From: a virus | Reading direction: 5' to 3' (one strand) | IMG/VR virus record: IMGVR_UViG_3300046713_000034 | Coordinates: 1 to 33,508 of that record | DNA: 33,508 nucleotides | In this document: positions 14,701 to 33,151 of the stretch, one piece after another | How the letters are laid out: the number at the start of each line of letters is the position of its first letter | How positions within the stretch are numbered: position 1 is the first letter of the stretch | The notes under the pieces: generated by a model | Seen by the model: the letters and a program-made list of their open reading frames with translations, nothing else | The model's database searches: none | Told to the model about the DNA's origin: nothing | Program-made: the position numbers and the translations under genes

Positions 14701-14885
14701 TTCGACCCGGCGATCTTCACCCAGTTGGTTGCGCCGCCACCGGTAACCGTGGAGACCGTGATGGTGGTCGACGTGACCTTCGTCCCCAGGATCAGGACGT
14801 TGCCGACTGCGTTGTTCGTGTGGGCAAGAGTAGTTGCGCCCGTGGCGATATTAGAGGCCAGGGTCCCGGAGGCGCTGATGGTCAC
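11718..14885 (-). CDS. Large surface/fibre-like protein with mosaic 17-residue repeats
   Basis: The product has 1055 residues from GTG 14885. The first 440 residues appear to be two related beta-rich modules, similar in style to the N-terminal part of the spike at 18099-20612. A basic linker around residues 445-470 (SKSRIQHHKGTRRQQ) follows. Then come 23 units of 17 residues, consensus xxATGTGxA plus an eight-residue half, at residues about 586-995. The end carries a 19-residue tandem repeat, VTGKPGAGT and so on. Composition is dominated by Ala, Gly, Thr and Gln, as in extended fibres. A virion surface fibre or decoration is the likely role, and the many Ser/Thr make it a candidate glycan acceptor. 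Just before the repeats is SATYTATYTAVYGE, a motif shared with the 40-residue peptide at 17975-18097. The precise function is not known. Confidence 0.75.
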   Translation of the reverse strand: MTISASGTLASNIATGATTLAHTNNAVGNVLILGTKVTSTTITVSTVTGGGATNWVKIAGSNNDGSRSQELWMGTVTTTGAQTITLTFSASVAAIAVDLGAQEFSSSLGTAAIWMAETSSFLNNGASTTVTWPTLAPHVRASELYVGQARIPSAGTLSGLTAGFTSQVDANGNPFIYGLDVTASVSPTQTDSSSAANATLAVLITDAGWLVLQSNLGALDPGVISQTYLSNVSSGTKLIAYITCGGGNNPEVTAIKDGALNAMTKLVSVFNNADQASGELSIWAMDTPAGDVGTKPTLTATATGGNQSYGLVIQEVAGLLPGNTTAMLDGGAFVTKTGTIAANGSLTANAYSSTTANEFLVFVGADSEASIITWGVPTGSTTYTRDAHAGNASNIFNCVPCYGKSTGGAETGSSALTGVTATSAYATVIGAFQLAGGTAGMGATQHRPSKSRIQHHKGTRRQQIQATFGVAQSPVVNASAGLATAVATAKSPGAAQGTVTGFSSVPGNAIAGRFTPGAPEFPGTAITAQMATATAVAQQTGGHNAGLATGAGGAPFSATYTATYTAVYGEQITTVATVGGTNAPAQIATGTGVAQQTAGHNTQVATAAGVSQQTAGHNAQAATGTGAAPAFGMAQAQVATAAGTAPQPTGQGSWLATSAGIAQQTAGHNVTLATGTGTAPQATAQGSWPATAVGAAPPFGMAQSQVATAAGAAPASGMAQAGLATGAGTPPPFGMAQAQVATGVGAALQATVQTSGSANAPAQVATGTGAAPDATGQGSWPATAVGAAPASGMAQAQVATAAGTAQQVTAQGSWPATGVGAAQQTAGHNVTAATATGAAPAFGMAQAGAATGTGTAPPFGMAEAQLASATGTAQQPTVSTSSNTNAPAQIATGTGTAQQPTAQGSWPATATGTAQQTAGHNTQLATGTGTASPFGMAQAQLAASTGTGQNATVLFGCNALAGLAAASGFCQQPSGHQAQFATAIAAALQPVVSASSAVVKATVITGVTGKPGAGTVTGKTGNSTNVTGKPGAGTTTGKTGNSTSVTGKALAGSVS
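11752..11865 (-). repeat. Two tandem 57-bp coding repeats
   Basis: Two adjacent 57-base units (11752-11808 and 11809-11865) encode VTGKPGAGTVTGKTGNSTN and VTGKPGAGTTTGKTGNSTS. A shortened third copy (VTGKALAGSVS) ends the protein. The units differ at several positions, including silent ones, so the duplication is not recent or is kept by selection. Confidence 0.9.
11901..13130 (-). repeat. Array of 23 coding repeats of 51 bp (17 residues) with mosaic halves
   Basis: Read on the minus strand, 23 units of 17 residues fill the interval exactly once three short insertions (7, 7 and 5 residues) are allowed for. Each unit begins xxATxxGxA and then uses one of a few second halves: QQTAGHNx (5 units), a P-x-FGMAQA type (8 units), an xxTAQGS type (5 units), or xxTVxTS plus an NAPA insertion (2 units). 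Three units near the C-terminus are degenerate. Half-types recur in irregular order, suggesting unequal recombination or gene conversion between units. Two more partial units lie upstream, near 13250-13310. Confidence 0.9.
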
Positions 14886-14917: not shown

Positions 14918-15544
14918 TCAGTTCAAGCCCCACACGAACATCTGCGTCATCGTAATAGAAGGGCCTGTGGATGAGGTGGACCAGGACGCGTACGCTTCGA
15001 GGTACACCGGGGTGGTGATCGTGGTGTTGAACGTGACCGGGGTGGTGGTCGCGGGCCCGATCACGTAGGAGATCTGCGGGGCCGCGACCGTGGTGGTCAG
15101 CGACGGTACCATTCCCCAGTTCAGCCACCCCCACGCCTGAAGCGCGCCGTTGACCCCGACCTGCGTGGCGGTGATGTACGTCTTGAAGTTGAACCCCATC
15201 GCCGCGCGGGACGTCGTGTCAGCGGTGAACGCACCCGTCGCGGCCAGCAGGGTAGTCGGAGTACCGCCGACTGCGTTGTCCAGGTACAGGGCGAATTTCA
15301 TCGTCGGGACGGTCGAACCGAGGCTGTACACCCCCATCCCCTCAACGAGCAGCGCCTTACCCTGCTTGGAGAAGTACCCGTGGGGGATCTCACACGGCGG
15401 GATCAGAGAACCCGCGCCCGCGCCTCCACCGCCCAGCAACGGGCCACCCGCAGCGGACCCGCTTGTGACAGTGTTAGTGACCGCACCGCCGATCCCCGGC
15501 ATGGCATAAATCAGTTCAGCGGGGGCGTCACCGTAAAAACTCAT
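14918..15544 (-). CDS. Beta-rich virion structural protein
   Basis: This 208-residue protein starts at ATG 15544, sharing ATGA with the stop of the fusion enzyme upstream. A Gly/Ala-rich N-terminal arm (GGPLLGGGGAGAGS) leads into a region of alternating hydrophobic and Thr/Ser residues with many aromatics (MKFALYLDNAV, then AWGWLNWGM), which looks like a beta-sandwich or jelly roll. I do not recognise a family. Its place between the glycan fusion enzyme and the repeat protein suggests a surface or decoration protein. Confidence 0.6.
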   Translation of the reverse strand: MSFYGDAPAELIYAMPGIGGAVTNTVTSGSAAGGPLLGGGGAGAGSLIPPCEIPHGYFSKQGKALLVEGMGVYSLGSTVPTMKFALYLDNAVGGTPTTLLAATGAFTADTTSRAAMGFNFKTYITATQVGVNGALQAWGWLNWGMVPSLTTTVAAPQISYVIGPATTTPVTFNTTITTPVYLEAYASWSTSSTGPSITMTQMFVWGLN

Positions 15545-16833
15545 AACGCCTTCTTCCTGACGATGGCCATCCCGTAGCGGTAGCTCACGGATTCAGTGTC
15601 GCTGTCGTGGTGCAGGCGGTCCAGCAGGGACTTCGCCAGGTCCAGCATGGCGGGGCTCTTACACGGTCCTTGATATTCGGGGTAGCCGACGAACCAGTCT
15701 TCAATCACGTAGAACCCGCCCGGTGACACCAGCGGCCACAGCAGGCTGAACGTGGCAGCGGTCAGGTCCCCGTCGTGGGAAGCGTCGTCCACGATAAGGT
15801 CCCATTCGGCGCTGTGCTCCGACAGGAGAGACGGGAGCTGAGGGTCGTCCTGCCCGGCGACGATACGGGTGGTACCCGGCGGCCACACCGCGTTCGTGTC
15901 CCGGTCCACCCCGGCGATCAGCCCCCCGGGGAACAAGTCTTGCCAGGTGGCAAGGGAACCCCCGCCTAGCACCCCGATCTCGCAGACCCGGGCGGCCCCG
16001 CCGAGCTGATCAGCGATGGTGTTATACGCGGGCAGGTACCCCTGGTCCACCTTGTCGGTCGCGTACGCTCTCGGTTCCGGGCGGGACGGCACCAGGAACG
16101 GCGTCATCGCACCCGGGACGCCGTTCAGCGACCGGAGCAGCGCGGGGTCCTTCGCGATCATCTCCTGGAATTTCAGGATCTCGTTCGCCGACTGGGTAGC
16201 CTGCCTGGGGGACTGTGACACGGGAAGCATGGGGGGGATCAGGTCGGGGTGGATGACCTGCGCCGGGGACATGTCCCCGCCCTCCTCGAAATACCACTCA
16301 ACCGGCTTGCCTTCGTTCTCACCGTCGACCATGCCCGTGTCGTAATCATGGTGGTGGGTCACGTCCCCGTGCACGTGGGGGAAGAAACCGTTCTTCTTCA
16401 GCATTGCCGCTACCCGGCCGTCAAGATGCCACCAGCAGCCTTTACCCCTGCACGCAGCGCAAGTACCGAACCCCTCCGCGATTTTTTCTACGGGAATTCT
16501 CCGTTGCGCCGCAGCGGAAACCTTGATGCATCCCAGCCCCACCCGCAGCCGCACCTTCGTGCGGAAGATCGGGTACGCGTAACAGCACCAATCCTGGCCG
16601 CACCGCTCCATCGTGGCGACCGTGTCGGGGCCGATCTCGATGTCCTGCTCGACGATGATCAGGTCCCGCGTTCCGGTCCACCGTTCCGCGATGGCGTTCC
16701 AGTACGCGTAGTTGTCGCCGGTTACGTCGACCGTTTCGGCGTGAGGAGCGTAAACTTCCATAGCCTTCACCGCATCCGGGTGCGGGTTCACCGTACAGAA
16801 CAATACCCGGGCTGTGTCCTGCGTTACGGTCAT
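15541..16833 (-). CDS. Glycosyltransferase-methyltransferase fusion
   Basis: The 430-residue product starts at ATG 16833. The N-terminal half resembles a GT-A transferase domain, with DLIIVEQDIEIG near residues 57-68 supplying a D-x-D-like metal site. A Cys/His-rich stretch follows (CAACRGKGC at 125-133 and HVHGDVTHHHD at 153-163), which may bind a metal. The C-terminal half, from about residue 255, is a class I SAM methyltransferase: VCEIGVLGGGS (283-293) is the SAM loop and LIVDDASHDGD (346-356) matches the CmcI/Methyltransf_24 type of sugar O-methyltransferases. One chain could add a sugar and then methylate it. The gene lies between a spike gene and beta-rich structural genes, suggesting virion proteins as acceptors. 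The linkage between domains is seen; specificity is not. Confidence 0.75.
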   Translation of the reverse strand: MTVTQDTARVLFCTVNPHPDAVKAMEVYAPHAETVDVTGDNYAYWNAIAERWTGTRDLIIVEQDIEIGPDTVATMERCGQDWCCYAYPIFRTKVRLRVGLGCIKVSAAAQRRIPVEKIAEGFGTCAACRGKGCWWHLDGRVAAMLKKNGFFPHVHGDVTHHHDYDTGMVDGENEGKPVEWYFEEGGDMSPAQVIHPDLIPPMLPVSQSPRQATQSANEILKFQEMIAKDPALLRSLNGVPGAMTPFLVPSRPEPRAYATDKVDQGYLPAYNTIADQLGGAARVCEIGVLGGGSLATWQDLFPGGLIAGVDRDTNAVWPPGTTRIVAGQDDPQLPSLLSEHSAEWDLIVDDASHDGDLTAATFSLLWPLVSPGGFYVIEDWFVGYPEYQGPCKSPAMLDLAKSLLDRLHHDSDTESVSYRYGMAIVRKKAL

Positions 16834-21165: not shown

Positions 21166-21276
21166 TCAGTCCTCGTTTTCCTCGTTATCGGGTACCGGCT
21201 CAGGAAGAACCGAGGTGTGCGCGGTGGCAAGCCCCGCGTGCGCTTCGACGTGCGGCGTCTCGCCGGGTTCGCTCAT
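21166..21276 (-). CDS. Acidic 36-residue peptide
   Basis: An ATG at 21276 shares its A with the stop of the CPNC protein (TGATG). The product begins MSEPGETPHVEAHAG and ends in an acidic DNEENED tail. Both ends abut neighbours tightly, three bases before the next GTG. Coupled translation makes it probably real. No family is recognised. Confidence 0.55.
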   Translation of the reverse strand: MSEPGETPHVEAHAGLATAHTSVLPEPVPDNEENED

Positions 21277-21596
21277 CAGAAAAAATCTCCCAGCCGGTTA
21301 CGGGCCAGGCCCGCGTTGACCGCCAGGTCTTCCCCGTCTTCACGGGTCGTGCGGATCGCCATGTACGGCTTACCGTCGTCCCCTGTGTTCTGGATTTCCT
21401 TACCCAGGTAGTCGGCGCGTTCCTCAGCCTCCACCTTGCACTGCGTCCCCACCCGGACCAGGGGAGCGGTGAGCATGTGCAACCCCGCGCACGTGTGGAA
21501 CCGGGACGACCCCGGAGGTAGCGCCACCGTGTGTTCGGTCACGTCGCAGTTCGGGCATTCCCAGTCATCGAACGCGTTCAGCAGAGGGACGTTCAC
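21276..21596 (-). CDS. CPNC zinc-ribbon protein, actinophage type
   Basis: I place the start at GTG 21596, where GTGA overlaps the methyltransferase stop by four bases; a GTG twelve bases earlier (21608) is possible. The 106-residue product has ECPNC at residues 13-17, then RFHTCAGLHMLTAPLV and GTQCKVEAEERADY, and ends in a region with AIRTTREDGED. I recognise this as a small conserved protein common in actinophage structural regions. The first Cys pair with the later FHTC and TQC may form a zinc site. Function is unknown. It closes the glycan island. Confidence 0.7.
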   Translation of the reverse strand: MNVPLLNAFDDWECPNCDVTEHTVALPPGSSRFHTCAGLHMLTAPLVRVGTQCKVEAEERADYLGKEIQNTGDDGKPYMAIRTTREDGEDLAVNAGLARNRLGDFF

Positions 21597-22123
21597 AGTT
21601 TCAGCCACACTCCCCGGCGTGATTCCCAGTCATCAGTGACGACCAGGTACTTGTCACCGGGTGGTTGTGTTTCCAGGTTCATCGCTATCACCACAGCGCC
21701 CCGGCGGATCTTGGAGTACACGTGTTTCTCCAGCTTCGCCTGGGTGGGCCGGTCACGGAACGGCCGGTTGAAGAACACGATGTCGAACTTGCCGTACGCC
21801 TGGAAGTCGAACGCGTCACACTCAGCGGCGTTCAGCCCCTGCTCTTTCGCCGCGACCACGTACTCCGTCACCCGGTCGAACCCTGTCACGTCCAGGCCGA
21901 ACAGGTCCCGGGCCAGCATCATTTTCGTACCAGGCCCGCATCCGATCTCCAGGAACGATTTCCCCGGGGCCTCAGCGATCGCCTCGATCAGCAGCACCAG
22001 GAACTGGGCCACGTCCGAGGGCATCCACCCGGTGAACATCTGCTGGTCACCGATGTCGACCTGTTTCTGCCATTTCCGTTCGATCTGCCGGACGCTGGTC
22101 AGCAGGTCACGAACGTCGCTCAT
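21593..22123 (-). CDS. Class I SAM-dependent methyltransferase
   Basis: This 176-residue protein starts at ATG 22123, sharing ATGA with the upstream small gene. FLEIGCGPGTKM at residues 57-68 is the SAM-binding loop and DVTGFDRV contains the acidic residue that follows strand 2. FDIVFFNRPF near residue 115 is the post-I/IV region; the NRPF sequence recalls the NPPY motif of N-methyltransferases but is not identical. As the last enzyme of the island it could methylate a sugar or a protein. DNA methylation is less likely because there is no target-recognition domain. Confidence 0.75.
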   Translation of the reverse strand: MSDVRDLLTSVRQIERKWQKQVDIGDQQMFTGWMPSDVAQFLVLLIEAIAEAPGKSFLEIGCGPGTKMMLARDLFGLDVTGFDRVTEYVVAAKEQGLNAAECDAFDFQAYGKFDIVFFNRPFRDRPTQAKLEKHVYSKIRRGAVVIAMNLETQPPGDKYLVVTDDWESRRGVWLKL

Positions 22124-22269
22124 TCCGAACTATCCTCCGGGGTGCCGTGGGTTTTCTTCCATTTCTGGAACTCTTCCCGCCAGTCCTGAAACGCTATCTT
22201 CCAGTCGCCAGGACCCTCACCGCCGCGGGTCTCTTCTACCGGAACAGCTTCTGGTACGTTTTCTCCCAC
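22120..22269 (-). CDS. Small charged protein of unknown function
   Basis: The frame ends with an ATGA overlap into the methyltransferase and contains a Trp/Lys/Glu-rich helix, DWREEFQKWKKTHG. The start is not clear: GTG codons at 22269 and 22278 both lie inside the end of the upstream glycosyltransferase gene. With GTG 22269 the product is 49 residues. The Trp-rich amphipathic helix suggests a protein contact, perhaps with one of the adjacent enzymes. No family is recognised. Confidence 0.5.
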   Translation of the reverse strand: MGENVPEAVPVEETRGGEGPGDWKIAFQDWREEFQKWKKTHGTPEDSSE

Positions 22270-23246
22270 AGTTTCCACCCTTCCTCGATGGTCCACTGCC
22301 GTGCCTGCTCCCGGGCTGCCGCGCCCATCTTGTTCCGCAGCCCTTCGTCTGAGGCCAGCTCCGACATGTAGCCCAGCCATTCGTGGTCACGTTTTACCAG
22401 GAACCCCGTTTCGCCGTGTTTCACGAAATCACGGTACGGATACCAGTCGCTGGCGATGACGGGGATGCCTAGCGCCCCGTACTCCAGGGCTTTCAGCGCC
22501 GACTTCGACGCGTTGAACGTGTTCGGTGCGATCGGAGCCAGGCCGATGTCCCAGTCGGGGGACGTGAAATACTCCCGCTCGTTGTCGTTGACCTGCACCC
22601 ACTTGGTGAACACGACCCGTTTACCCGCCTTGAACGTCGGACGGTAGTCGGTGCCCTGGAGGCGGAAATCCCAGCCGGGGAACCGTTTCAGGAACCGTTT
22701 CACCGGGGATACGATCATGCCCACGTCAACCCCGTGGGACGCGCCCCCGGCCCAGCCCACCGCTGGGCGGTCACGGCGCTTACGCTCGAACTCGCACACC
22801 CACGCGGGTAGGTGGTTCGGGAGGACCACCACGTTCGGGTTATGTTCCCGCAGCACCTCAGCCAAAGGCTCCGTGGTGGTGGTGATCACGTCCGCGATTT
22901 CCATCGCGTGGGTCGCCGCGTCCAGGATGTCAGGCTTCTGCCACAGGGTGTACGCGGAGAAGTTCTCCGCGTTGATGGAGAACACGTCGTCGTCCAGCTC
23001 GTACACTAGCCGGTTATGCGGGGTGCGGGCTTCACGGTACACGTGGACCCCGCCGGGTTTGTTGAACCGCTGCGCCACGATCACGTCATGCCCGGCCATC
23101 GTAGACGCCGTGATCGCTTTCCCTTTGTCCAGGTCAGCGGACGCAATCGTAATATCGTAGCCGTGTTCCGCGAGGTGCCGCATCGGCAGGAGCATCCGCC
23201 AGTACGCGCACCCTGACCCGCCGTCGTGACCCGCGAAGATTCTCAC
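22236..23246 (-). CDS. GT4-type glycosyltransferase (GT-B fold)
   Basis: I place the start at GTG 23246, where GTGA overlaps the stop of the small zinc protein; this gives 336 residues. The N-terminus reads VRIFAGHDGGSGCAYWR, a typical nucleotide-sugar transferase opening with a G-x-G-x-x-x-R-like loop. VYELDDDVFSI (about 93-103) and the C-terminal ALEYGALGIPVIASD with GETGFLV (about 265-300) are hallmarks of the GT4 family, where the Glu contacts the donor. It should add a hexose or deoxyhexose. Linked genes can supply a modified sugar donor. Donor and acceptor remain unknown. Confidence 0.85.
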   Translation of the reverse strand: MRIFAGHDGGSGCAYWRMLLPMRHLAEHGYDITIASADLDKGKAITASTMAGHDVIVAQRFNKPGGVHVYREARTPHNRLVYELDDDVFSINAENFSAYTLWQKPDILDAATHAMEIADVITTTTEPLAEVLREHNPNVVVLPNHLPAWVCEFERKRRDRPAVGWAGGASHGVDVGMIVSPVKRFLKRFPGWDFRLQGTDYRPTFKAGKRVVFTKWVQVNDNEREYFTSPDWDIGLAPIAPNTFNASKSALKALEYGALGIPVIASDWYPYRDFVKHGETGFLVKRDHEWLGYMSELASDEGLRNKMGAAAREQARQWTIEEGWKLWEKTYQKLFR

Positions 23247-23362
23247 GTCCCTGGGTCTTCCTTCCACGTGTGAAAGTTCTCGCACTGGTAGTACGGCTGG
23301 TCCGTGGTGTCATCCTCGGTCAGCACCGTAGGTGGAAGCCCGCACTCAGGACACACCGCCAT
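23243..23362 (-). CDS. 39-residue zinc-ribbon peptide
   Basis: ATG 23362 has GAGGAGG five to six bases upstream. The product has CPECG at residues 4-8 and a second pair, C27 and H31, in CENFH, so one zinc could be held by C4, C7, C27 and H31. It overlaps the following glycosyltransferase start by four bases (GTGA). Short zinc ribbons like this occur often in phage late operons without known function; here it may be a partner or a chaperone of the transferase. Confidence 0.7.
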   Translation of the reverse strand: MAVCPECGLPPTVLTEDDTTDQPYYQCENFHTWKEDPGT

Positions 23363-23374
23363 GTCCCCTCCTCG

Positions 23375-23578
23375 CTAAGTTCCCTGAACCTTCGCGAGGG
23401 TCCGTTTCACGTACGCCTCGTCCAGGCCAGCGTCGATCCCCGCTTTCGCGACCTTCGCCACCTCGCCGGGTGGCAGCCCATCCTCAACCGCGGTCACCGC
23501 AGCCCAGAAGAAACCCTTGTGACGTTGCCCCTCGGGGAGCCCCCGGACGAAATCGGCGAGGCCGTCAGCCGTCGCCAC
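23375..23578 (-). CDS. Small helical protein of unknown function
   Basis: This 67-residue protein starts at GTG 23578 inside the last 14 bases of the methyltransferase gene. It is helical: ADFVRGLPEGQRHKGFFWAA, then a second part with GEVAKVAKAGIDAGLDEAY. The layout is like small C-terminal helical domains of primase-polymerase proteins, where a GxRxxxLFWAA-type helix is common, but there is no primase domain here. It may be a domesticated leftover or a binding module. Function unknown. Confidence 0.55.
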   Translation of the reverse strand: MATADGLADFVRGLPEGQRHKGFFWAAVTAVEDGLPPGEVAKVAKAGIDAGLDEAYVKRTLAKVQGT

Positions 23579-24176
23579 CGGGTACCAGACCCCACGCCAG
23601 GGAACCGATCACGTCGGTGACACCGAATTCATCCGCGACCGGGGTGATGCGGAACCCCGCGTGCCCTGTCGCCTCGGACCGGCCGTAGTCGTGGAACGCT
23701 ACCCACCCGCCTGGTTTGACCAGCATCAGCGCCAGCCCCAGGTCCCTGCGGACGGATTCCTCGGAGTGGTGCCCGTCGATGAAAGCCCCGTCGCACCGGA
23801 CACCGTTCGCGGCGAGCTTCGGGACCTCTTCCTCGAACCTGCCACGGATCGCGACCACCCGGTCATCGACCTTGTAACCCATCAGGTTCGCGCGGAACCC
23901 TTCCCACGTTTCGTACTGCCCGGCGTGCTCGTCGCTCATATGCCAGTCGACGGAGTAAACCTTCTGCGCGACCGACGCCATCACCACGGTGGAGTACCCG
24001 TAGAAAGCACCCAGCTCCAGGACCGTGCAATCCCTGGCCAGCCGTGCTAGTTCAGCGGCCTCAGTGACGGTGACCGCGGACTGGATACCGGCGGGGAAGA
24101 TGACCTGCCGTTCAGATTCCCCACGCGCTTCGGCCCGCCACCGTCCAGTACGAGATACCCGGTTCGGCGTGTTCAT
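23565..24176 (-). CDS. SAM-dependent methyltransferase, Methyltransf_24/CmcI-like
   Basis: I start it at ATG 24176, giving 203 residues and a 65-base overlap with the upstream gene; no better start lies downstream. TVLELGAFYGYSTVVMA (51-67) is the SAM loop and CDGAFIDGHHSEESVRRDL (about 130-150) is the acidic/His segment of sugar O-methyltransferases and related Methyltransf_24 enzymes. VAFHDYGRS follows. It probably methylates a sugar hydroxyl on the phage glycan. The MT part of the fusion enzyme at 15541-16833 belongs to the same type, so the phage carries two versions. Confidence 0.75.
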   Translation of the reverse strand: MNTPNRVSRTGRWRAEARGESERQVIFPAGIQSAVTVTEAAELARLARDCTVLELGAFYGYSTVVMASVAQKVYSVDWHMSDEHAGQYETWEGFRANLMGYKVDDRVVAIRGRFEEEVPKLAANGVRCDGAFIDGHHSEESVRRDLGLALMLVKPGGWVAFHDYGRSEATGHAGFRITPVADEFGVTDVIGSLAWGLVPGGDG

Positions 24177-24804
24177 GGTAGTAGCGTAGCTCCTCGTCCA
24201 ACTCTGCGTAATCCTCATACCACGCGAGATGGTCCGCTACGTACGGGTGGCCGATGCGCAGCGCGGACAGCGAGATGTCGAACTCCCGCTCAGTCAGCGG
24301 CTGGTACAACGCCAGGGTCGTGTCGACCGGGGCCTTATACACCTTCGCGCCGTTCAGCTGAGCGCCGTCCAAGCGGTCGTCCCAGAATTTCCGCTCCCAC
24401 TTCAGCACGTGGTCTTTACGCTGGTACGTGTCGGGGATGCGGTCCAGCCGCAAACCCAGCCCCGCCTTGGAATACTCGGGGTGACGGTCCAGCAGCCACG
24501 ACAGTTGCCCCGGCCAGTCCAGCGGGCATTCCTCGGACGGTACCACGTCGCAGTCGGTGACCACGTACCGGCCGGTGCCGCACGCCTCACGGAACGGTTC
24601 CCAGTCCCACAGTGTCCGCGGGTGCCCCCCGCCTCGGTGCATGACCTGCACGCCCGCGACTTCTATCGCTTTCAGGTAGTCCTTCGCCAGCGGCCACGTG
24701 GAACCCTGGTCGATGATCACCGGGTCCAGGCCCGCTTCGGTCATCGCGGTGAGGCACAAGTGCGCGTATGTCACGCGGTCCCGGAAGATAATGAAGGCTT
24801 TCAC
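24112..24804 (-). CDS. GT-A-like glycosyltransferase
   Basis: The start is GTG 24804, a GTGA overlap with the upstream gene; a GTG at 24822 is possible. The 230-residue protein begins VKAFIIFRDRVTYAHLCL, and RYVVTDCDVVP (79-89) holds a D-x-D motif for metal-bound NDP-sugar (D84, D86). LWDWEPF is near residue 65. Short, single-domain GT-A-like enzymes of this type recur in phage glycan clusters. Together with the three GT-A-like genes upstream it could build a short oligosaccharide, one enzyme per bond. Specificity is not readable. Confidence 0.7.
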   Translation of the reverse strand: MKAFIIFRDRVTYAHLCLTAMTEAGLDPVIIDQGSTWPLAKDYLKAIEVAGVQVMHRGGGHPRTLWDWEPFREACGTGRYVVTDCDVVPSEECPLDWPGQLSWLLDRHPEYSKAGLGLRLDRIPDTYQRKDHVLKWERKFWDDRLDGAQLNGAKVYKAPVDTTLALYQPLTEREFDISLSALRIGHPYVADHLAWYEDYAELDEELRYYHEHAEPGISYWTVAGRSAWGI

Positions 24805-25406
24805 CGGAACACGCTCGGCCACACATCGGAAGTCTCAGCGTTCACATTCACGTACTTTACCCCGGCGTCCAGCCACCGCTCAATCAGGTCCCAGTCTTCA
24901 GTCCACGAATCAGGACCCCACGTGCCATGCTCCAGGATGGACCGGCGGTGCATGATCATCGGGGAACCCACGTTCCCCAACGCCAGCGGCCCCCACCCGA
25001 CGATCACCGGGTGGGCGTGATGGGACACCATGCGGGAAACCGCGAACCCCGCATCCGGGTCGGCGTTCAGCGCCTCCGCCATCAGCCTGCAATGCTCCGG
25101 GCGGAGCGCGTCATCGTCGTCGCAGTAGGTGATGTACTCACCCGCGGCTTGCGCCAGCGCTGCTTTCCTCGGACGGGACCCGAACTCAGCCAGCGGGTCA
25201 CGTTCGGGGAACTCCGCGTAGACCAGCGGATGCTTCCACTCGAACGCGCGGAGCAGCCGCATCAGCTGTTCGTCCGGCCCGTCGGAGAACACCACGTGCT
25301 GCACCCGACCGTAGTCCTGCGCCTGCACCGATGGGATACACCGGGACATCAGCAGCTTGTTCCGCCGCCACGTCGGGGTTATGACGCTGACCATAGGGGC
25401 GGTCAC
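24801..25406 (-). CDS. Family 2-like glycosyltransferase
   Basis: GTG 25406 overlaps the upstream stop by four bases (GTGA), giving 201 residues. VSVITPTWRRN at residues 6-16 is the classic family 2 opening, VQHVVFSDGPDE follows, and ITYCDDDDALRPEH (92-105) is the metal and donor site. The C-terminal TEDWDLIERWLDAG resembles the acceptor-side helix with the ED motif of family 2 enzymes. It should transfer a sugar from an NDP donor. It lies in the coupled run of transferase genes. Confidence 0.85.
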   Translation of the reverse strand: MTAPMVSVITPTWRRNKLLMSRCIPSVQAQDYGRVQHVVFSDGPDEQLMRLLRAFEWKHPLVYAEFPERDPLAEFGSRPRKAALAQAAGEYITYCDDDDALRPEHCRLMAEALNADPDAGFAVSRMVSHHAHPVIVGWGPLALGNVGSPMIMHRRSILEHGTWGPDSWTEDWDLIERWLDAGVKYVNVNAETSDVWPSVFR

Positions 25407-26146
25407 CCTGGTATCCCCAGCCCGGCATTGAACTGCGCCAGTCCGAGCGGGGTGAACGGGGTGCCGCCCAGCTTCTCGATGTCGTCGTTCAGGCCGCCCG
25501 TGCCCAGGTTCCTGGAGTACGAGTGCCACGCTGCGAGGTCCCCGCCGGTGATCAGCGCGGTCGACTGTGCGTAGGACTCGTCCAGCGGGGATTTTCCCAC
25601 GGAGTAGTGGAGGTGCTCGATTATCACGTTGTCGAGATACGTGATGCCGCAGCCGATACCCCACGCCATCCACGCCACGTCAACGTACATGTGCCGTATC
25701 TGCGGGGGCCCGAAATATCCCAGCTTCGCGATGACCTCGGACCGGCAGAATACGTGGCAGCACAACGAACCCGGTGCACGCGGGTACAGGTCATTCGCGA
25801 ACGCGAACGGTGTCTGTTCCAGCGCTTCCATTATCGCCACGTCCCACCCGGGGGTGGACGGCACGTTGTCATCACCGAAGTGACCGATGTACTTGTACTC
25901 GTGGACCCGGGGGACGGTCAGCTCGTTGATCCACGCGACCACCTGACGGAGCCCCGACCGGATTTCGTACGGCATCACCAGCGGCTGCAACCCCAGCGTC
26001 CGGTAATCCTGAAGGCGAGGGTCGTCGGCGTCCAAACCGACCAGCAGCGCCGTGTCCCCCTCGCAGGTTTTCAGCATCGCCTCGGACAACCGCGCGATAC
26101 TCAGCGGGCGTCCCCTCGACGGTACGGCTACCAGCAGGTCATTCAC
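25403..26146 (-). CDS. GT-A-like glycosyltransferase
   Basis: I start at GTG 26146, an eight-base overlap (GTGAATGA) with the upstream stop; a TTG two codons earlier is possible. The 247-residue protein begins VNDLLVAVPSRGRP, and YIGHFGDDNVPSTPGWD (about 86-102) carries the DD metal site (D92, D93) followed by the typical P-x-W-D. VDVAWMAWGIGCG and HLHYSVGKSP suggest acceptor and donor contacts. It has the look of an orphan GT-A family found in actinobacterial and phage genomes. It likely acts with the neighbouring transferases. Confidence 0.78.
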   Translation of the reverse strand: MNDLLVAVPSRGRPLSIARLSEAMLKTCEGDTALLVGLDADDPRLQDYRTLGLQPLVMPYEIRSGLRQVVAWINELTVPRVHEYKYIGHFGDDNVPSTPGWDVAIMEALEQTPFAFANDLYPRAPGSLCCHVFCRSEVIAKLGYFGPPQIRHMYVDVAWMAWGIGCGITYLDNVIIEHLHYSVGKSPLDESYAQSTALITGGDLAAWHSYSRNLGTGGLNDDIEKLGGTPFTPLGLAQFNAGLGIPG

Positions 26147-26810
26147 GCACAATCACCGACAGCCACGGGTAGGCGGGGATAGGTGGCAGGGGTTCCGGCA
26201 TCGGTTCCCGTTTCGCGCGGAAGCTTTCGTCCCGCACTTCCCGGTAGTAGTACATCGGGTCGTCGATCCATTCCTCGACCGTACACTGCCCCGAATCGCG
26301 GACCACCCGGCACCAGTCACGTTCAGCTTCCCACCCGCCGGTGAACCGGCCGAGCAGCGCCAGGTCCCGGCGTATCGGGTTCTTCTCCGAGATGTCCCGC
26401 CACACCAGGTCAGCGGTCTGACCCCACCCATATTTCTTCAGCGAATGCTGCACGGGGATCTGCGGGACCCCATCCTGGGTCCACAGCACCGGGTACCCCA
26501 CGTAGTCAGGTTTTGTTTGCAGCGCCGCCAGTACCCTGCGGACGAAATCCGGGGCCACCCAGTCATCGTCGTCCACGCAGGACACGTAATCAGCGCGGGA
26601 CGCCTCCATCAGCGCCTGCGTTTTATCCCCGTACGAAACTTCCAGGTTGTCCCGGTACAACAGCACCGTGGCGGGGAAAAACCGTGACGCACCAGCAGGC
26701 GGGCTCGGCGGCAACTGGGCGATCAACTGCCCGTCCAGCTCAGCGAGCAAGGCACACAGCATGTCGTGCCGGTGCGGGATCGACGTGATCAGGATGTCCC
26801 AGGTGATCAT
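26139..26810 (-). CDS. GT-A-like glycosyltransferase
   Basis: This 223-residue enzyme starts at ATG 26810 with an ATGA overlap. Residues 1-12 read MITWDILITSIP and YVSCVDDDDWVAPDFV (75-90) is the family 2 metal site. A YGDKTQALMEAS helix precedes it. TVEEWIDDPMYYYREVR near residue 177 is the C-terminal part. It directly follows the sugar-tailoring genes (SDR, C-methyltransferase, cupin), so it could be the first to use the modified sugar. Acceptor unknown. Confidence 0.8.
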   Translation of the reverse strand: MITWDILITSIPHRHDMLCALLAELDGQLIAQLPPSPPAGASRFFPATVLLYRDNLEVSYGDKTQALMEASRADYVSCVDDDDWVAPDFVRRVLAALQTKPDYVGYPVLWTQDGVPQIPVQHSLKKYGWGQTADLVWRDISEKNPIRRDLALLGRFTGGWEAERDWCRVVRDSGQCTVEEWIDDPMYYYREVRDESFRAKREPMPEPLPPIPAYPWLSVIVRE

Positions 26811-27160
26811 TTCAGCAACGGCACCGCCAGACGTTCAGTGTCCGACTCGTACGCGTCACCAGACCGGGGTCCCCTCGTCATGACCAGCACCCTCGTGATG
26901 TCCAGCGCTTTCCACGCGTGCGGCACACCAGCGGGTTCTTTGAAGAACTCCCCGGTGACCCGTTCCTTCGTGTGGACCCCGTCGTCTTCAATCCACGCGA
27001 CCAGCAGCCTGCCGTACGCAATGTACGTCCACTGGGTTGTCAGCTTATGCACGTGGTTCCCGCGGACCGCGCCCTTCGCCGTCAAGATTTCCGTCACAGC
27101 GTCGACCGGGCCCAGCAGGTCCTGGATAATACCGCGCTCATCCTCGAAACGATCACTCAC
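26807..27160 (-). CDS. RmlC-like cupin, possible sugar isomerase/epimerase
   Basis: The start is GTG 27160 in an eight-base overlap (GTGAGTGA) with the methyltransferase; the earlier start at 27235 would add an unrelated segment. The 117-residue single cupin has GNHVHKLTTQWTY at residues 34-46 (H36 and H38) and VPHAW near 83-87. It resembles the small RmlC/FdtA-type cupins that epimerise or isomerise dTDP-4-keto sugars and is often annotated that way. Encoded next to an SDR and a sugar C-methyltransferase, it likely acts on the same NDP-keto-sugar, though a binding-only role is possible. Confidence 0.72.
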   Translation of the reverse strand: MSDRFEDERGIIQDLLGPVDAVTEILTAKGAVRGNHVHKLTTQWTYIAYGRLLVAWIEDDGVHTKERVTGEFFKEPAGVPHAWKALDITRVLVMTRGPRSGDAYESDTERLAVPLLK

Positions 27161-28268
27161 TGACGATCCTCGGCTGCGGTAGGGGGATGATGAATTTCCC
27201 AGTATAACCAGCAGCCCGCAACGAGGACATGACATCCGAGGCGATGTGCCACGCGAACAGCAGCGCGTACGGCGGCTGGTCCTCGATCAGTTTCTTCTCA
27301 TCCACGATCGGCAGTTTCGTGCCGGGCATCATCCGCCCGATCTTCTCACTGCCCGCAACCTCGCACACGCACGTCAGGAACTTATCAGCCCCGGTGAAAT
27401 GCATCAGCGGGGTCGCGCGGGTCGCCGCGCCCACACCGTACACCGGGGCACCCCCGTCGGTGAGCATCCGCAGCAACGCGGTCAGCCGGTCTTTCACCAT
27501 GTCAGCGCGGTGCTGAAGACCAGTGTCCATCCGTCCCGCGCGGACCCGGAACGAACCGCCATGCGCGGGTATCTGCTGGCTGGACCACACCGTGAACCCG
27601 TGGTCTGACAGGAGACGCCCCAGTGTCACCAGGTCGTAGTAGCGGAGATGCTCGTGGTACACCGTGTCGATCTGCAACCCCGACATCACCGCGGACAAGT
27701 CGTGGTTCTCAGTGATGAACGTCCCCCCGCCGGATAGCAGGGTCGCGACACCCTGCATGAAATCGTGGGGGTCCGGGACGTGCGCCAGAACATTGTAAGC
27801 GGTGACGATCTGCGCCGGACCGTACGTGTCACGGATACGCGACGCGAGACCAGACGTGAAAAACTTCTGGTACACGATGACGGGCGGCCCGATCTTCCGG
27901 GCCTGGTCTGTGGGTTCCACCGCGATCAGCCTGCACCGGCCACCGAACGCTGCCAGTGACGTACCGTCGTTCGCTCCGATATCCACGACAGTGTCATCAG
28001 CGCGGGTGTGTATCAGGCCGGCTAGTTCCTGCGCGTGACGGCGGCGTTCCGCGCTGTTCCCCGCCGCGTACGGGTGGTCCGACGCGAACAAATCCGTGGC
28101 GGGCACGATGTAATCCAGCTGAACCAGGGTGCACGACCGGCAGCGGACCAGGCGCAGCGGGTACGTGGGCCCGTTACCGTACTGCTCCGCGAGGGGCTGT
28201 ATCCCCATGTCCAGTATCGGGACCATGTACGGCGAACCGCACAGCCCGCAGTTCGTGACCTCACCCAT
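27153..28268 (-). CDS. NDP-sugar C-methyltransferase, TylCIII/NovU type
   Basis: This 371-residue enzyme starts at ATG 28268 in an eight-base overlap with the SDR. It has the N-terminal zinc-binding pair C7/C10 and C43/C46 (NCGLC and RCRSC) of the C-3 and C-5 deoxysugar methyltransferases. VVDIGANDGTSLAAF (94-108) is the SAM loop, and TVYHEHLRYY (about residues 203-212) carries the residues that act as general base in the family. The C-terminal GVGAATRATPLMHF and CEVAGSEKIGRMMPGT segments are the C-terminal domain. It adds a methyl group to a ring carbon of an NDP-4-keto-6-deoxysugar, giving a branched sugar. Normal length for the family. The sugar is not identified. Confidence 0.88.
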   Translation of the reverse strand: MGEVTNCGLCGSPYMVPILDMGIQPLAEQYGNGPTYPLRLVRCRSCTLVQLDYIVPATDLFASDHPYAAGNSAERRRHAQELAGLIHTRADDTVVDIGANDGTSLAAFGGRCRLIAVEPTDQARKIGPPVIVYQKFFTSGLASRIRDTYGPAQIVTAYNVLAHVPDPHDFMQGVATLLSGGGTFITENHDLSAVMSGLQIDTVYHEHLRYYDLVTLGRLLSDHGFTVWSSQQIPAHGGSFRVRAGRMDTGLQHRADMVKDRLTALLRMLTDGGAPVYGVGAATRATPLMHFTGADKFLTCVCEVAGSEKIGRMMPGTKLPIVDEKKLIEDQPPYALLFAWHIASDVMSSLRAAGYTGKFIIPLPQPRIVSE

Positions 28269-29214
28269 GGGTACGGTACCAGTCCACCGTCCGCGCCAGA
28301 CCAGTCTCGAAACTGACCAGGGGTGTCATGTCAGCCAGCGCGTTGATCTTCCGGGTGTCCGGCAGCCTGCGCGGCGGAGACCCCTTCGGGAGGGAACCCG
28401 GCTCGATCTTGATGTTCCGGTTGTAGCATTGCGCCACGGCGTGCGCCACATCCGCGATGGTGTGCTCGTCCATCGTCCCCACATGCCACGTCCCGCCCGG
28501 CGCGTTGTCCAGCAGCATGACGAGCTGGTTCACGCAGTCGCTGATGTAGCAGAACGACCGGGTTTCCTGCCCCGTCCCCTGGATCGGGAACGAGACGGGA
28601 CCGTCAGGGTGGGTGGTGGTCAGCTCGTTCATGCGGATGCAGAACTCCGGGATGACATGCTCACGGCCCATATCCGGCCCGTAAATGTTATGCGGCCGGG
28701 CGATCACCAGGCGGTCCAGGATCCCTTCCCGTTCCCACGCCAGCGAGGCCAGTTCACACGCGATCTTCCCGCCCCCGTAAGAGTACCGGGGGTTCTGCGG
28801 GTCAGGGACGACCAGCGGCACGTTCTCCGGGGTCGGTACCACGGGGGCGACCTGGTAAGCCTCCGATGAGGAGACCAGCAGCAGATCACTGCACGCGGTC
28901 CGCTCGCACGCATCTAGGATGTTCAAGATGCCGCGCAGCGCCACGTCCAGGACCGTGCGGGGGTTCGCGTAGAAAGTCTGCGTCCCCTGCAAGTAGGCCA
29001 GGTGGGCGACCCGGGAGCACCCCTGCATCGCGCGGGTCACCGCACCAGCATCGCGCACGTCGCCGTACGCGATCTCACACCCCGACCCGGCGAGACGCTG
29101 GGGGTTACCACGGGACATGTCGTCCAGCACCCGGACTTCGTGACCCTGGCGGATCAGCTGCCACGCCAGGTTGCTGCCGATGAAACCGGCCCCGCCCGTT
29201 AGGAGATATCGCAT
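28261..29214 (-). CDS. NAD-dependent epimerase/dehydratase (extended SDR)
   Basis: This 317-residue enzyme begins MRYLLTGGAGFIGS, a Rossmann TGxxGxxG loop at residues 6-13. The catalytic triad is partly visible: VSSSEAYQ (Ser at about 115-117) and YGGGK (Tyr146, Lys150). RPHNIYGPDMGREHV and RSFCYISDCV are typical of UDP-galactose 4-epimerase and GDP/dTDP-sugar dehydratase relatives. It supplies or reshapes a nucleotide sugar for the downstream C-methyltransferase. The ATG overlaps the zinc-ribbon gene by 16 bases. Which reaction it catalyses cannot be told, and no separate nucleotidyltransferase or 4,6-dehydratase lies in the window, so the host probably provides the precursor. Confidence 0.88.
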   Translation of the reverse strand: MRYLLTGGAGFIGSNLAWQLIRQGHEVRVLDDMSRGNPQRLAGSGCEIAYGDVRDAGAVTRAMQGCSRVAHLAYLQGTQTFYANPRTVLDVALRGILNILDACERTACSDLLLVSSSEAYQVAPVVPTPENVPLVVPDPQNPRYSYGGGKIACELASLAWEREGILDRLVIARPHNIYGPDMGREHVIPEFCIRMNELTTTHPDGPVSFPIQGTGQETRSFCYISDCVNQLVMLLDNAPGGTWHVGTMDEHTIADVAHAVAQCYNRNIKIEPGSLPKGSPPRRLPDTRKINALADMTPLVSFETGLARTVDWYRTHG

Positions 29215-29348
29215 CTCGCCATGATAGCGGCAGGCTTAGCGTAATACTCCACCCGCCACCAGTCGTAGCATTCGGTGCACATCGCGCCGCTGTTCAGTTC
29301 CCGCCAGTGGCCGCACATGTAGCAGTACCCGGGTTCCCGGTTTTCCAC
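29199..29348 (-). CDS. 49-residue zinc-ribbon protein overlapping the SDR
   Basis: GTG 29348 follows GGAGG by nine bases. The product has two CxxC pairs (C9/C12 and C24/C27 in YCYMCGHW and MCTECYDWW), a textbook four-Cys ribbon. Its last 16 bases overlap the epimerase start. Aromatic residues fill the loop. It is likely a partner or a regulator, with no family named. Confidence 0.72.
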   Translation of the reverse strand: MENREPGYCYMCGHWRELNSGAMCTECYDWWRVEYYAKPAAIMARCDIS

Positions 29349-29397
29349 AGCATGTATCCTCCAGGGTCATGCTGCCAGGGTCCGGGGCAGCTGAACT

Positions 29398-29577
29398 TTA
29401 GGTCTGGGTCCAGCCATCCCCGGATTCGAAATCACCGGAAGCCTGACCGGAAGCGTTCGCCGGGCCAGAGTTCCGGTCCACCGAAACCCACCCGCATACA
29501 GTCGCGTCGCTCGTGGAATTATACGGCTGCCCGGGGACAGACGGCGGCGACGTGATCGGACTCGGTGCACTAGCCAT
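29398..29577 (-). CDS. 59-residue Ser/Thr/Pro-rich protein
   Basis: ATG 29577 starts two bases before the stop of the upstream gene ends and follows GGGAGTC. Composition is Ser, Thr, Pro and Gly rich (SAPSPITSPPSVPGQPYNST) with a single Cys. Disordered Ser/Thr-rich proteins are good acceptors for O-linked sugars, and it lies right at the border of the glycan island. No family is recognised. Confidence 0.6.
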   Translation of the reverse strand: MASAPSPITSPPSVPGQPYNSTSDATVCGWVSVDRNSGPANASGQASGDFESGDGWTQT

Positions 29578-29579
29578 GG

Positions 29580-31742: not shown

Positions 31743-32981
31743 TCAGGACGCCGCGCCCACGTACAGGGAAATAGCCCCGGTACGGTCGACCAGCGTTCCG
31801 TCACCACGCAGGATGGCCCTGAACGTCACAAGGTCGGTGCCGAAAGCGAAGTCGTCGGACCGCTCGAAACGGACCCCTCCGACCAGCCGCACGAAATACT
31901 GCGAGAAGTCACCGAAAGCGATGCACTTCGCGGACAGCGCCTGCGCCGGCATGAACGGGTCAGCGACCAGCGGCTTACCCAGCAGAAGGTCAGGGGAACC
32001 CAGAACAGCGGAAGGCTCCCAGATCGGGCGGCCCACCGTGTCCGTGATCTTCCTGAACCCGCCGATGGTCTTGTCAGCCGCCAACCAATAGCAGGAGCGG
32101 GACTGCCTGTACGGGGCGATAACCGAGTACTCCAAGTCCACGAGGTTCGCGTACGAAGGAGCACCGGAAACACCGGTCGTAGCGCCCGTAACACCAGTCG
32201 TCGCACCGGCGATAAGACCGCCGGAAATGTTGTTCGTCTGGTTGATCAGAGCGGAACCGAAAGCGTTCCCCAGGGCCCGGCCGGCCTGCATCGCGAGGTA
32301 CCCCAGAAGGTCCACCGCGGTGTCGTCGATAAGCTCCCGAGCGACCTGAATGAGGACACCGAACTTCACCGCGTTCAGCGTCTGCATGGAGAACGCCGGG
32401 TCAGAAGCGGAAATCGCGCCGCCCTGAGCCGCTGACGTACCAGTCGAGTGACCGGTCGTCTTCGGCACCTGGAGCGTCTCGCCACCGCCCGTGTTCAGGA
32501 CGGTAGGCCCGCACTGCATCAAACCGCTCACCTCGATAAGGTGAGCTATCAGCTGGTCGTAGAAGTCCGTCGGCACGATCGTCGACGGCGTACCCGTGGT
32601 CAGCAGGGTACGGTAGTTAATCGGACCGGAAGCCTGACGCCGGATTTCCATTGCCCGGCCAGCGCCATCCTCGCCCCTGGCCCACTTGCGGATCTCCGTG
32701 TCCATGTTCCGCTGTGCAGTCGGGGCACCCTCACCCTGACGCGGACGACCCTCCAGGTCGTTGAACGCGTCGTCGGCCTGCTTGGCGCGCTTCTCCGTGT
32801 CCAGCACGGCACCGATACGCTCGTCCAGCGTGCGCATCTCGTCCTGCATCGCGTCCCAGCGACCCTGCTCCTCCGGGGTGAAACTACGGTTTTCCCCGGC
32901 GGCGTCCTCAGCGATCTTCTTCGCGTCGTTCCAGACGCCTAGACGCCTGTCACGGAGCCGCTTAGCGGTCTCACTAGCCAT
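31743..32981 (-). CDS. HK97-fold major capsid protein
   Basis: I start at ATG 32981, where GGGAAGG lies about eight bases upstream, rather than at 33035, which has no ribosome site. The 412-residue product has an N-terminal coiled-coil region of about 80 residues (ETAKRLRDRRLGVWNDAKK, then WDAMQDEMRTLDERI) like the delta domain that scaffolds HK97-type shells, then a fold of about 300 residues with TPSTIVPTDFYDQLIAHLIE, VPKTTGHSTGTSAAQG and DFSQYFVRLVGGVRFERSDD near the C-terminus. Those segments are typical of HK97/phage_capsid proteins. The delta domain is usually cut off by the phage protease after assembly. This is the anchor gene of the head block. Confidence 0.95.
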   Translation of the reverse strand: MASETAKRLRDRRLGVWNDAKKIAEDAAGENRSFTPEEQGRWDAMQDEMRTLDERIGAVLDTEKRAKQADDAFNDLEGRPRQGEGAPTAQRNMDTEIRKWARGEDGAGRAMEIRRQASGPINYRTLLTTGTPSTIVPTDFYDQLIAHLIEVSGLMQCGPTVLNTGGGETLQVPKTTGHSTGTSAAQGGAISASDPAFSMQTLNAVKFGVLIQVARELIDDTAVDLLGYLAMQAGRALGNAFGSALINQTNNISGGLIAGATTGVTGATTGVSGAPSYANLVDLEYSVIAPYRQSRSCYWLAADKTIGGFRKITDTVGRPIWEPSAVLGSPDLLLGKPLVADPFMPAQALSAKCIAFGDFSQYFVRLVGGVRFERSDDFAFGTDLVTFRAILRGDGTLVDRTGAISLYVGAAS

Positions 32982-33151
32982 TTCCTGGCCCTTCCCTTGT
33001 ACGGACAGATCTGTTAGAACCTGCTCCGTCCGCACCCGAGGAGGGTGGCTACGGCCGAGGTAACGATATTCAGTTGTGCACCGGTCTAGCCTGGCGTCTT
33101 ATTATCCGCGCCCGGCCCGCAGGAACCCGGTAGTCACAGCCCTGCGGTTTC
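32982..33151 (-). promoter_or_regulatory. 170-base leader before the capsid gene
   Basis: This is the longest gene-free stretch in the window. It holds a perfect 10-bp palindrome ACAGATCTGT (33005-33014) 24 bases before the capsid start and a 5-bp hairpin, CACCC/GGGTG, at 33033-33047. An AT-rich GATAAT-like box lies at 33101-33106, but I see no matching -35 element at a good distance. It may hold a late promoter or an mRNA leader; the elements are weak evidence. Confidence 0.35.

Follow-up and report, generated by a model that had tools for sequence, protein, structure and literature searches.

The window analyzed here, a 33,508-nucleotide stretch of viral DNA, encodes ten carbohydrate enzymes at positions 21593–29214, in a late operon. 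The best reading of this island is a capsid-linked core layer of glycosyltransferases combined with an exchangeable C-methyl-sugar cassette, a variation on the known virion glycosylation of actinophages. Its gene content, gene order, and two-layer inheritance are computationally established. We put the probability that the island is a cytoplasmic glycan-building system, decorating the phage's own structural proteins in late infection, at a little under 60%.

Gene Content and Genomic Position

A sequence-only reading had listed an SDR, a sugar C-methyltransferase (CMT), a cupin, four GT-A-like transferases, a GT4 transferase, and two methyltransferases, and had read them as a late-operon set that makes, C-methylates, and transfers a sugar. 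Pfam and PHROG profiles, a DxD motif, and structure models bore this out. We counted ten enzymes rather than eight to nine. Every island gene lies on the minus strand, as do the upstream landmarks:

31743..33035, minus strand: major capsid protein, HK97 type (PF05065, 6.6e-51; phrog_10, 7e-60)
31807-31295, minus strand: connector-like gene
28261..29214, minus strand: SDR, UDP-glucuronate-decarboxylase-like nucleotide-sugar enzyme, 317 aa (PF01370/PF16363)
27153..28268, minus strand: CMT, TcaB9/TylC3-type sugar C-methyltransferase, 371 aa (PF08421+PF13489+PF08484)
26807..27160, minus strand: single-domain cupin, proposed keto-sugar epimerase/isomerase, 117 aa; longer ORF to 27235 (PF00190)
26139..26810, minus strand: GTa, GT2/GT-A glycosyltransferase, 223 aa (PF00535, 3e-6; phrog_14775, 5e-21)
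25403..26152, minus strand: GTb, GT-A glycosyltransferase, 249 aa (phrog_14945, 2e-35; model)
24801..25394, minus strand: GTc, GT2 glycosyltransferase of the core layer, 197 aa; longer ORF to 25673 (PF00535, 2.9e-11)
24112..24822, minus strand: GTd, GT-A-superfamily enzyme, 236 aa (DxD motif; model)
23565..24218, minus strand: MT24, SAM methyltransferase; start uncertain, possibly 24176 (PF13578, 1.9e-18)
22236..23285, minus strand: GT4-family glycosyltransferase of the core layer, 349 aa (PF00534/PF13692; phrog_7162, 8e-57)
21593..22123, minus strand: MT176, SAM methyltransferase, 176 aa (PF13847, 1.1e-7)
21276..21608, minus strand: small protein overlapping MT176, kept in L013, L019, and L022

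The coupled run described earlier holds for the first eight genes, from the SDR to MT24 (intergenic gaps of –65 to +8 bp), but not for the last two: MT24 and GT4 are 279 bp apart, and GT4 and MT176 112 bp. The island had also been placed between capsid and connector genes. The capsid gene is indeed upstream, but the placement is loose on the other side, since a connector-like gene is also found upstream and the island is followed by fibre-like genes and only beyond those by the head-tail adaptor (11721–10771). The arrangement is not due to chance: dozens of contigs preserve the gene order and orientation, and dN/dS of the enzymes is 0.10–0.41. The small protein had no PHROG match, promoter and terminator motifs were no more frequent than expected by chance, and searches for Rfam families and tRNAs returned none.

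Further glycan-type genes were found outside the limits of 21276–29348 originally drawn for the island, along with a repeat protein that is a putative O-glycan acceptor:

15541..16833, minus strand: protein with a C-terminal Methyltransf_24 domain (PF13578, 1e-4, below gathering; phrog_21658, 6e-15)
11718..14885, minus strand: Ala/Thr/Gly-rich repeat protein, 1055 aa, 23% Ser+Thr, with a 17-residue period
9218..10273, minus strand: GT1-like glycosyltransferase between the adaptor and the major tail protein (PF13524, 3e-12)

The Methyltransf_24 protein possibly belongs to the same pathway; an N-terminal transferase domain considered for it was dropped, as profile comparison with GTb showed no relationship.

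Glycosyltransferases and Methyltransferases

Family matches, motifs, and predicted folds support the assigned enzyme classes. The Pfam search that had been proposed as a check placed most genes, the exceptions being GTb, without a Pfam match, and GTd, without any family match. The GTb model (pLDDT 93.3) is GT-A-like, with SpsA, WrtF, and TarP as Foldseek neighbors. For GTd, the model (pLDDT 85) has GT-A transferases and RmlA-type enzymes as neighbors, and the D90xD92 motif is invariant; its profile showed no relationship to that of GTb. Searches of PDB sequences with GT4 and GTb found no relatives. MT176 has a 93% identical copy in L019. MT24, which probably O-methylates the glycan, matches residues 261–450 of phrog_2675, and the N-terminal part of the same family matches GTb.

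DNA glycosylation by phage glycosyltransferases is well known, and the label of phrog_2675, "DNA methyltransferase", could suggest that the island transferases act on hypermodified bases of the phage DNA. We consider this very improbable: the ordered placement of the genes alongside those of the capsid, together with the fold neighbors, indicates small-sugar or polymer transferases, and no thymidylate synthase/hydroxymethylase homolog (the T-even-type fold, PF00303) was found in 16 contigs, possibly incomplete, of up to 164 kb. The candidate was dropped.

Distribution and Hosts

Relatives of the SDR were found in 72 viral contigs, up to 210 kb in length. The CMT lies downstream of the SDR in all 65 testable viral loci and the capsid gene upstream in 44 of 59 SDR loci, and none of 600 nearby matched genes was on the opposite strand. 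Viewed from the capsid clade, all 37 loci with at least 5 kb of downstream sequence carry at least one island SDR or GT gene, and 22 of them the SDR–CMT pair.

The bearers form a large group of soil phages, none of them cultured. A 15-kb megablast query had no match among phage records, neither had the cupin, and the best match of the CMT in cultured phages reached only ~26% identity, with no close relative. Actinobacterial hosts are likely, since WhiB genes are present in 5 of 18 contigs and the nearest relatives of GTb and GT4 are in Streptomyces phages. A host assignment through a prophage was rejected: a capsid homolog (36%) is present in a Kitasatospora genome, but the surrounding 4.2 kb contain no cassette. 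The clade is seemingly virulent; among 16 contigs, one has a tyrosine integrase and none a serine recombinase/resolvase.

A scan of bacterial genomes worked with the SDR but gave no confirmed relative with the CMT profile. Most of the 80 bacterial loci hold the SDR–CMT pair in the order and strand seen in the viruses. In these polysaccharide-type loci, however, the pair is flanked by genes for full-length nucleotide-sugar dehydrogenases, Gfo/Idh/MocA, and GT2. These dehydrogenases may belong to the UDP-ManNAc or UDP-GlcNAc type and not to the UDP-glucose type. The viral SDRs form a clade separate from the bacterial ones.

Two-Layer Inheritance

We compared pairwise divergences with Mantel's rho, using the same 14 loci for all gene pairs. 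Divergence of the capsid was followed by that of GTc (0.77), GT4 (0.83), and the structural control g30370 (0.86). The SDR (0.03) and CMT (0.04) were not in step with the capsid but tracked each other (0.61), and they occupy the same slot across loci despite this uncoupling. The contrast is visible in single pairs: L006 and L202 are 95% identical in the capsid and 50% in the CMT, while L215 and L225 are 56% identical in the capsid and 79% in the SDR.

The inheritance bears on a reading in which the product is a diffusible glycoside, an auxiliary metabolite, and not a glycan attached to protein. Homologs of the CMT do come from antibiotic clusters, but co-inheritance of GTc and GT4 with the capsid, and the fact that neither aglycone-forming genes nor a transporter were noticed in the window, make this reading barely credible.

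Sugar-Modifying Enzymes

The solved structures nearest to the SDR are UXS1, ArnA, and EvdS6. UXS1, a UDP-glucuronate decarboxylase, comes first at ~30% identity, with other SDRs scoring close behind. Residues S116, E118, Y146, K150, and R283 correspond to T118, E120, Y147, K151, and R277 of UXS1, and the catalytic Ser/Thr (S/T at 116), Glu, YxxxK, and Arg are conserved in 51 viral and 80 bacterial sequences, a residue set also present in several other SDRs. None of the NCBIfam equivalog cut-offs was reached, so the SDR has no curated UXS membership. In contrast to those enzymes, its gene is followed by that of a C-methyltransferase; its decarboxylase activity is predicted.

The CMT had been called TylCIII/NovU-like, and this was confirmed. 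Its zinc-binding N-terminal, SAM, and C-terminal domains (PF08421, PF13489, PF08484) are ordered as in TcaB9, to which it was aligned, and TylC3, and it matches sugar 3-C-methyltransferases at E 2e-42. The YHEH motif (Y204, E206, H207; YxEH in TcaB9, TylC3, and NovU) and C43/C46 are invariant, and C7/C10 nearly so. Architecture, zinc cysteines, and the Tyr/Glu/His residues support a TcaB9/TylC3-type enzyme, for which a 4-keto nucleotide sugar is the predicted substrate. Unlike those enzymes, the CMT has 371 aa instead of ~410, and it is partnered by an SDR in a phage late operon rather than by a dTDP-deoxysugar pathway.

The description of the cupin as RmlC-like was not borne out by Pfam: the RmlC and FdtA sugar-isomerase families of Pfam were not reached, only the generic models PF00190/PF07883, and matches to dTDP-4-dehydrorhamnose 3,5-epimerase (RmlC-type structures) were weak (E 0.006–0.008). 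The RGNHxH..T.Q motif and H81 are nevertheless invariant among 28 relatives.

A branched, methylated sugar had been proposed, made by enzymes of a kind known from modified deoxysugars. That the set builds an unusual C-methyl-branched sugar is very likely, but a UXS-like SDR, and dehydrogenase partners elsewhere, may fit a C-methyl pentose from a hexuronic acid better than a 6-deoxyhexose. A competing view, which concerns the sugar only and overlaps with virion glycosylation, has a 4,6-dehydratase-type SDR making a noviose- or virenose-like C-methyl 6-deoxyhexose. The characterized CMT relatives, TcaB9 and D-mycarose 3-C-methyltransferase, act on dTDP-4-keto-6-deoxy sugars, the SDR also matches dTDP-glucose 4,6-dehydratase models, and an RmlB-like dehydratase is found near the island in L017, L018, and L244. 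Yet no solved structure is closer to the SDR than UXS1, its residues match the UXS catalytic set, and the recurrent neighbors of the SDR–CMT pair are dehydrogenases, not RmlA or RmlB; we regard the 6-deoxyhexose as possible but doubtful. In 11 of the 72 viral SDR loci, there is a short UDP-glucose-type dehydrogenase whose substrate type may be other than UDP-glucose.

Proposed Pathway and Target

The exact substrate, the identity of the sugar, and the order of steps are what we infer from the enzyme classes. The host would provide the nucleotide sugar, most likely UDP-glucuronic acid or a related hexuronic acid. Supply of the precursor by the host had been suggested before and agrees with the result that neither the window nor any of 17 relatives has a PF00483 nucleotidyltransferase; the window itself also has no nucleotide-sugar dehydrogenase and no final reductase. 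The SDR would oxidize C4 with NAD and remove the carboxylate, as UDP-glucuronate decarboxylases do, giving a 4-keto pentose; release of the keto product by an enzyme of this type, with a proposed use for a branched sugar, has been described for EvdS6 (PMC10338323). The CMT would then methylate the carbon next to the ketone, and the cupin may epimerize or tautomerize the keto sugar. GT4 and GTc would assemble a conserved core glycan on a virion protein; its extension with the modified sugar would fall to GTa, GTb, and GTd, and its O-methylation to MT24 and MT176.

Gene position, soluble enzymes (a strong membrane segment is found in none of them), and analogy with mycobacteriophages point to virion proteins as the probable target. 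Phages also alter host glycans, and enzymes made late could act on host polymers instead, modifying a wall glycopolymer or surface glycan to block superinfection, for example, or to prevent progeny from binding debris. TarP, a wall teichoic acid transferase, is among the fold neighbors of GTb, and the bacterial SDR–CMT pair sits among polysaccharide-type genes. However, the island has no membrane transferase and 16 contigs no initiating sugar-phosphate transferase, and divergence of GTc and GT4 with the capsid, in a late structural block, would be needless for a host-wall enzyme. As most contigs lack lysogeny genes, a lasting host conversion is unlikely and lysogenic conversion was dropped; the membrane transferase/flippase and temperate phage of GtrABC-type O-antigen seroconversion were not found. 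Altogether, modification of the host envelope seems improbable.

Discussion

Virion glycosylation by phage transferases has been described for the mycobacteriophages Che8, Corndog, and Myrna (Freeman et al. 2023, as cited in PMC12363180). Among phages, such glycosylation is known from a few mycobacteriophages. The island is alike in its phage-encoded transferases, probable actinobacterial hosts, and capsid or tail proteins as proposed targets; as in the Che8/Corndog type, the transferases are soluble. It differs from what is described there, transferases acting on virion proteins, in that it comprises ten enzymes, among them some for nucleotide-sugar synthesis and C-methylation, and in being an exchangeable cassette adjoining the capsid gene. 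Genes 4–6 of the Streptomyces phages Zuko and KimJongPhill are similar in that a GT4 homolog (34–35% identity) lies near terminase and capsid genes. It adjoins an SDR annotated as UDP-glucose dehydrogenase, which is of the RmlB-like kind (TDEVFG), unlike the island SDR, and KimJongPhill also has a methyltransferase there; the CMT, cupin, and GT-A cassette are absent from both. Our literature search found no phage C-methyltransferase pathway.

Under the virion-glycosylation reading, the SDR–CMT–cupin–GTa–GTb cassette would swap between phages while GTc and GT4 remain linked to the capsid. Related phages would accordingly have the core in common but differ in the outer sugars. More tentatively, the island may be a "serotype island", in which a GTc/GT4 core coevolving with the capsid is capped by an exchangeable C-methyl-branched pentose from a virus-specific SDR/CMT lineage; exchange of the cassette would then alter the outermost virion sugar, much as bacterial O-antigens change. 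In a large, mostly uncultured clade, 8 kb of the late operon are given over to a special sugar. If the reading is true, it predicts virion serotypes, offers a new source of C-methyl-sugar enzymes and glycosyltransferases, and would allow natural cassette variants to be used in tests of what phage surface glycans are for.

Gene content and layout of the island

The IMG/VR contig comprises 33,508 bases with 64.9% GC, and its minus strand carries the structural genes together with the island (21593–29214). In transcription order, the ten genes encode a UDP-glucuronate-decarboxylase-like nucleotide-sugar enzyme (SDR), a sugar C-methyltransferase (CMT), a cupin, four GT-A-type transferases (GTa, GTb, GTc and GTd), a SAM methyltransferase (MT24), a GT4-family glycosyltransferase (GT4) and a second SAM methyltransferase (MT176); genes 1–8 overlap or lie at most 8 bp apart. 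The sequence-only reading had recognized this run of enzymes correctly: direct Pfam support exists for eight of the ten, while GTb matches PHROG glycosyltransferases and has a model (mean pLDDT 93.3) whose top Foldseek matches are SpsA and other GT-A transferases. GTd has a DxD motif invariant among ten relatives and a GT-A-superfamily model; because the Foldseek matches mix transferases with RmlA-type nucleotidyltransferases, a transferase is the likelier of the possible assignments. The dN/dS values of 0.10–0.41 over the island enzymes show a signature of purifying selection. Immediately upstream of the SDR gene lies a 365-bp gap (29215–29579), unusual for so compact an operon, in which we found no promoter-like site above chance.

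Other genes of the window
1598–7480 (-): 1960-aa tape-measure-like protein, transglycosylase-type domain at residues 1460–1536 (phrog_12661); by eye, also an NlpC/P60-like stretch
9218–10273 (-): glycosyltransferase-like gene (PF13524) lying between the genes for the head-tail adaptor and the major tail protein
11718–14885 (-): 1055-aa protein rich in Ala, Thr, Gly and Gln, repeating with a period of 17 residues
15541–16833 (-): 430-aa protein encoded beside the fibre genes, with a Methyltransf_24-like domain at its C terminus

Conservation of the island among relatives

Searches with the CMT and with SDR and capsid profiles returned 22 viral loci, 72 viral contigs and 80 viral contigs, respectively, and the order capsid, connector, small genes, SDR, CMT, cupin, glycosyltransferases was conserved in most of the 22. 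In the SDR set, all 65 testable loci had the CMT after the SDR on the same strand, at a median gap of 29 bp. A cupin followed in 52 of 61, and in 44 of 59 the capsid gene stood upstream. Of 600 matched genes in the neighbourhood, none was encoded on the other strand. Of the capsid-clade loci, 37 extended 5 kb or more downstream: 22 of these had the SDR–CMT pair, 7 had an SDR-like match but lacked the CMT, and 8 lacked an SDR yet carried one or more of the island's glycosyltransferases in the same slot; all locus counts are descriptive, deduplication being partial and the query proteins coming from the island itself. 

By eye, some relatives carry a Glycoside-hydrolase-5-like gene that directly follows the island but is encoded on the other strand (L017:16478–17638 (-), also L015 and L018) and may act in glycan trimming or on the host wall, and others RtcB-like RNA ligase and phospholipase-D-like genes nearby (L006:16152–17327 (-); L016:7046–7585).

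Two layers of inheritance

Using Mantel tests, we compared the protein distances of each island gene with those of the capsid. Capsid divergence was tracked by GTc and GT4 and untracked by SDR, CMT, cupin, GTa and GTb. On a common set of 14 non-redundant loci, the correlations were 0.86 for the structural-block control gene g30370, 0.83 for GT4, 0.77 for GTc, 0.03 for SDR and 0.04 for CMT, and SDR and CMT correlated with each other at 0.61. Saturation does not explain this result, since SDR has diverged less than GT4. SDR and CMT are single-copy; GTa and GTb have paralogues, and their lack of correlation is therefore weaker evidence. Individual pairs illustrate the pattern: L006 and L202 agree at 95% in the capsid but at 50% in the CMT, and L215 and L225, which agree at 56% in the capsid, reach 79% in the SDR and 69% in the CMT. 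Judged from these distances, the island is a capsid-linked core joined by an exchangeable C-methyl-sugar cassette.

Predicted sugar chemistry

With TcaB9 the CMT shares its three-domain build, the zinc cysteines and the YxEH motif. Among solved structures, human UDP-glucuronate decarboxylase comes closest to the SDR profile, and counterparts of its Thr118 (Ser or Thr), Glu120, Tyr147, Lys151 and Arg277 are conserved across 51 viral and 80 bacterial sequences; as no curated equivalog threshold is reached, we suggest that the SDR works like this enzyme and claim no family membership. Eleven viral SDR loci encode a short (~255 aa) UDP-glucose-dehydrogenase-like protein that lacks the UDP-binding domain and keeps the catalytic Cys motif (L011:9375–10148; L018, L019, L191, L243, L254–L259). 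In bacteria, SDR and CMT are adjacent in most of 80 loci and, where inspected, often beside a nucleotide-sugar dehydrogenase and a Gfo/Idh/MocA oxidoreductase. The pair (L024–L103) is widespread in bacteria as well as in DPANN archaea (L064, L074, L082); the surrounding pathway appears uncharacterized. The decarboxylase EvdS6 is documented to release a 4-keto pentose, proposed to feed branched-sugar synthesis (PMC10338323). Given the enzyme features, dehydrogenase neighbours and this precedent, the route would start from a hexuronic acid and yield, via a 4-keto pentose, a branched sugar bearing a C-methyl group, with a 6-deoxyhexose route a serious rival.

Conserved in the cupin are RGNHxH...Q and, further on, a His, which form a cupin site of the metal type. 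A single PHROG profile (phrog_2675) matches GTb in one half and MT24 in the other, which suggests a link between sugar transfer and methylation.

Origin and hosts

The viral SDRs form one group against 80 bacterial SDRs (SH-aLRT 100), which argues that the viral lineage is old; the bacterial relatives were chosen by pattern, and closer ones may have escaped. Of 18 contigs, 5 carry WhiB genes (in a control of 14 genomes, the family was present only in Corynebacterium), and the closest relatives of GTb and GT4 belong to Streptomyces phages; both observations point to actinobacterial hosts. A Kitasatospora genome (G016) carries a 36% identical capsid homologue on one contig (C46, locus L104) and an SDR–CMT pair on another. 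A tyrosine integrase in 1 of 16 contigs and no serine recombinase found in these incomplete contigs suggest mostly virulent phages.

Proposed target of glycosylation

We infer that the island glycosylates the virion: it sits in the late operon, its enzymes are soluble, no initiating lipid-sugar transferase was found in 16 contigs, the core transferases diverge together with the capsid, and virion glycosylation has precedents in Che8, Corndog and Myrna (PMC12363180). The main rival is modification of the host envelope; modification of DNA is unlikely, as 16 contigs of up to 164 kb yielded no thymidylate synthase or hydroxymethylase homologue. The 1055-aa repeat protein is a possible mucin-like acceptor; the same slot is occupied in L013 by a protein of 860 aa and in L021 by one of 556 aa. 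The earlier observation holds, and the proposal built on it, a branched, methylated sugar placed on the phage's own particles, is partly right.

The analysis adds that the island is conserved and modular across a large clade of uncultured phages, and that it combines a core linked to the capsid with a C-methyl-sugar cassette that is exchangeable. If the virion is indeed the target, the island would represent a new form of phage virion glycosylation.
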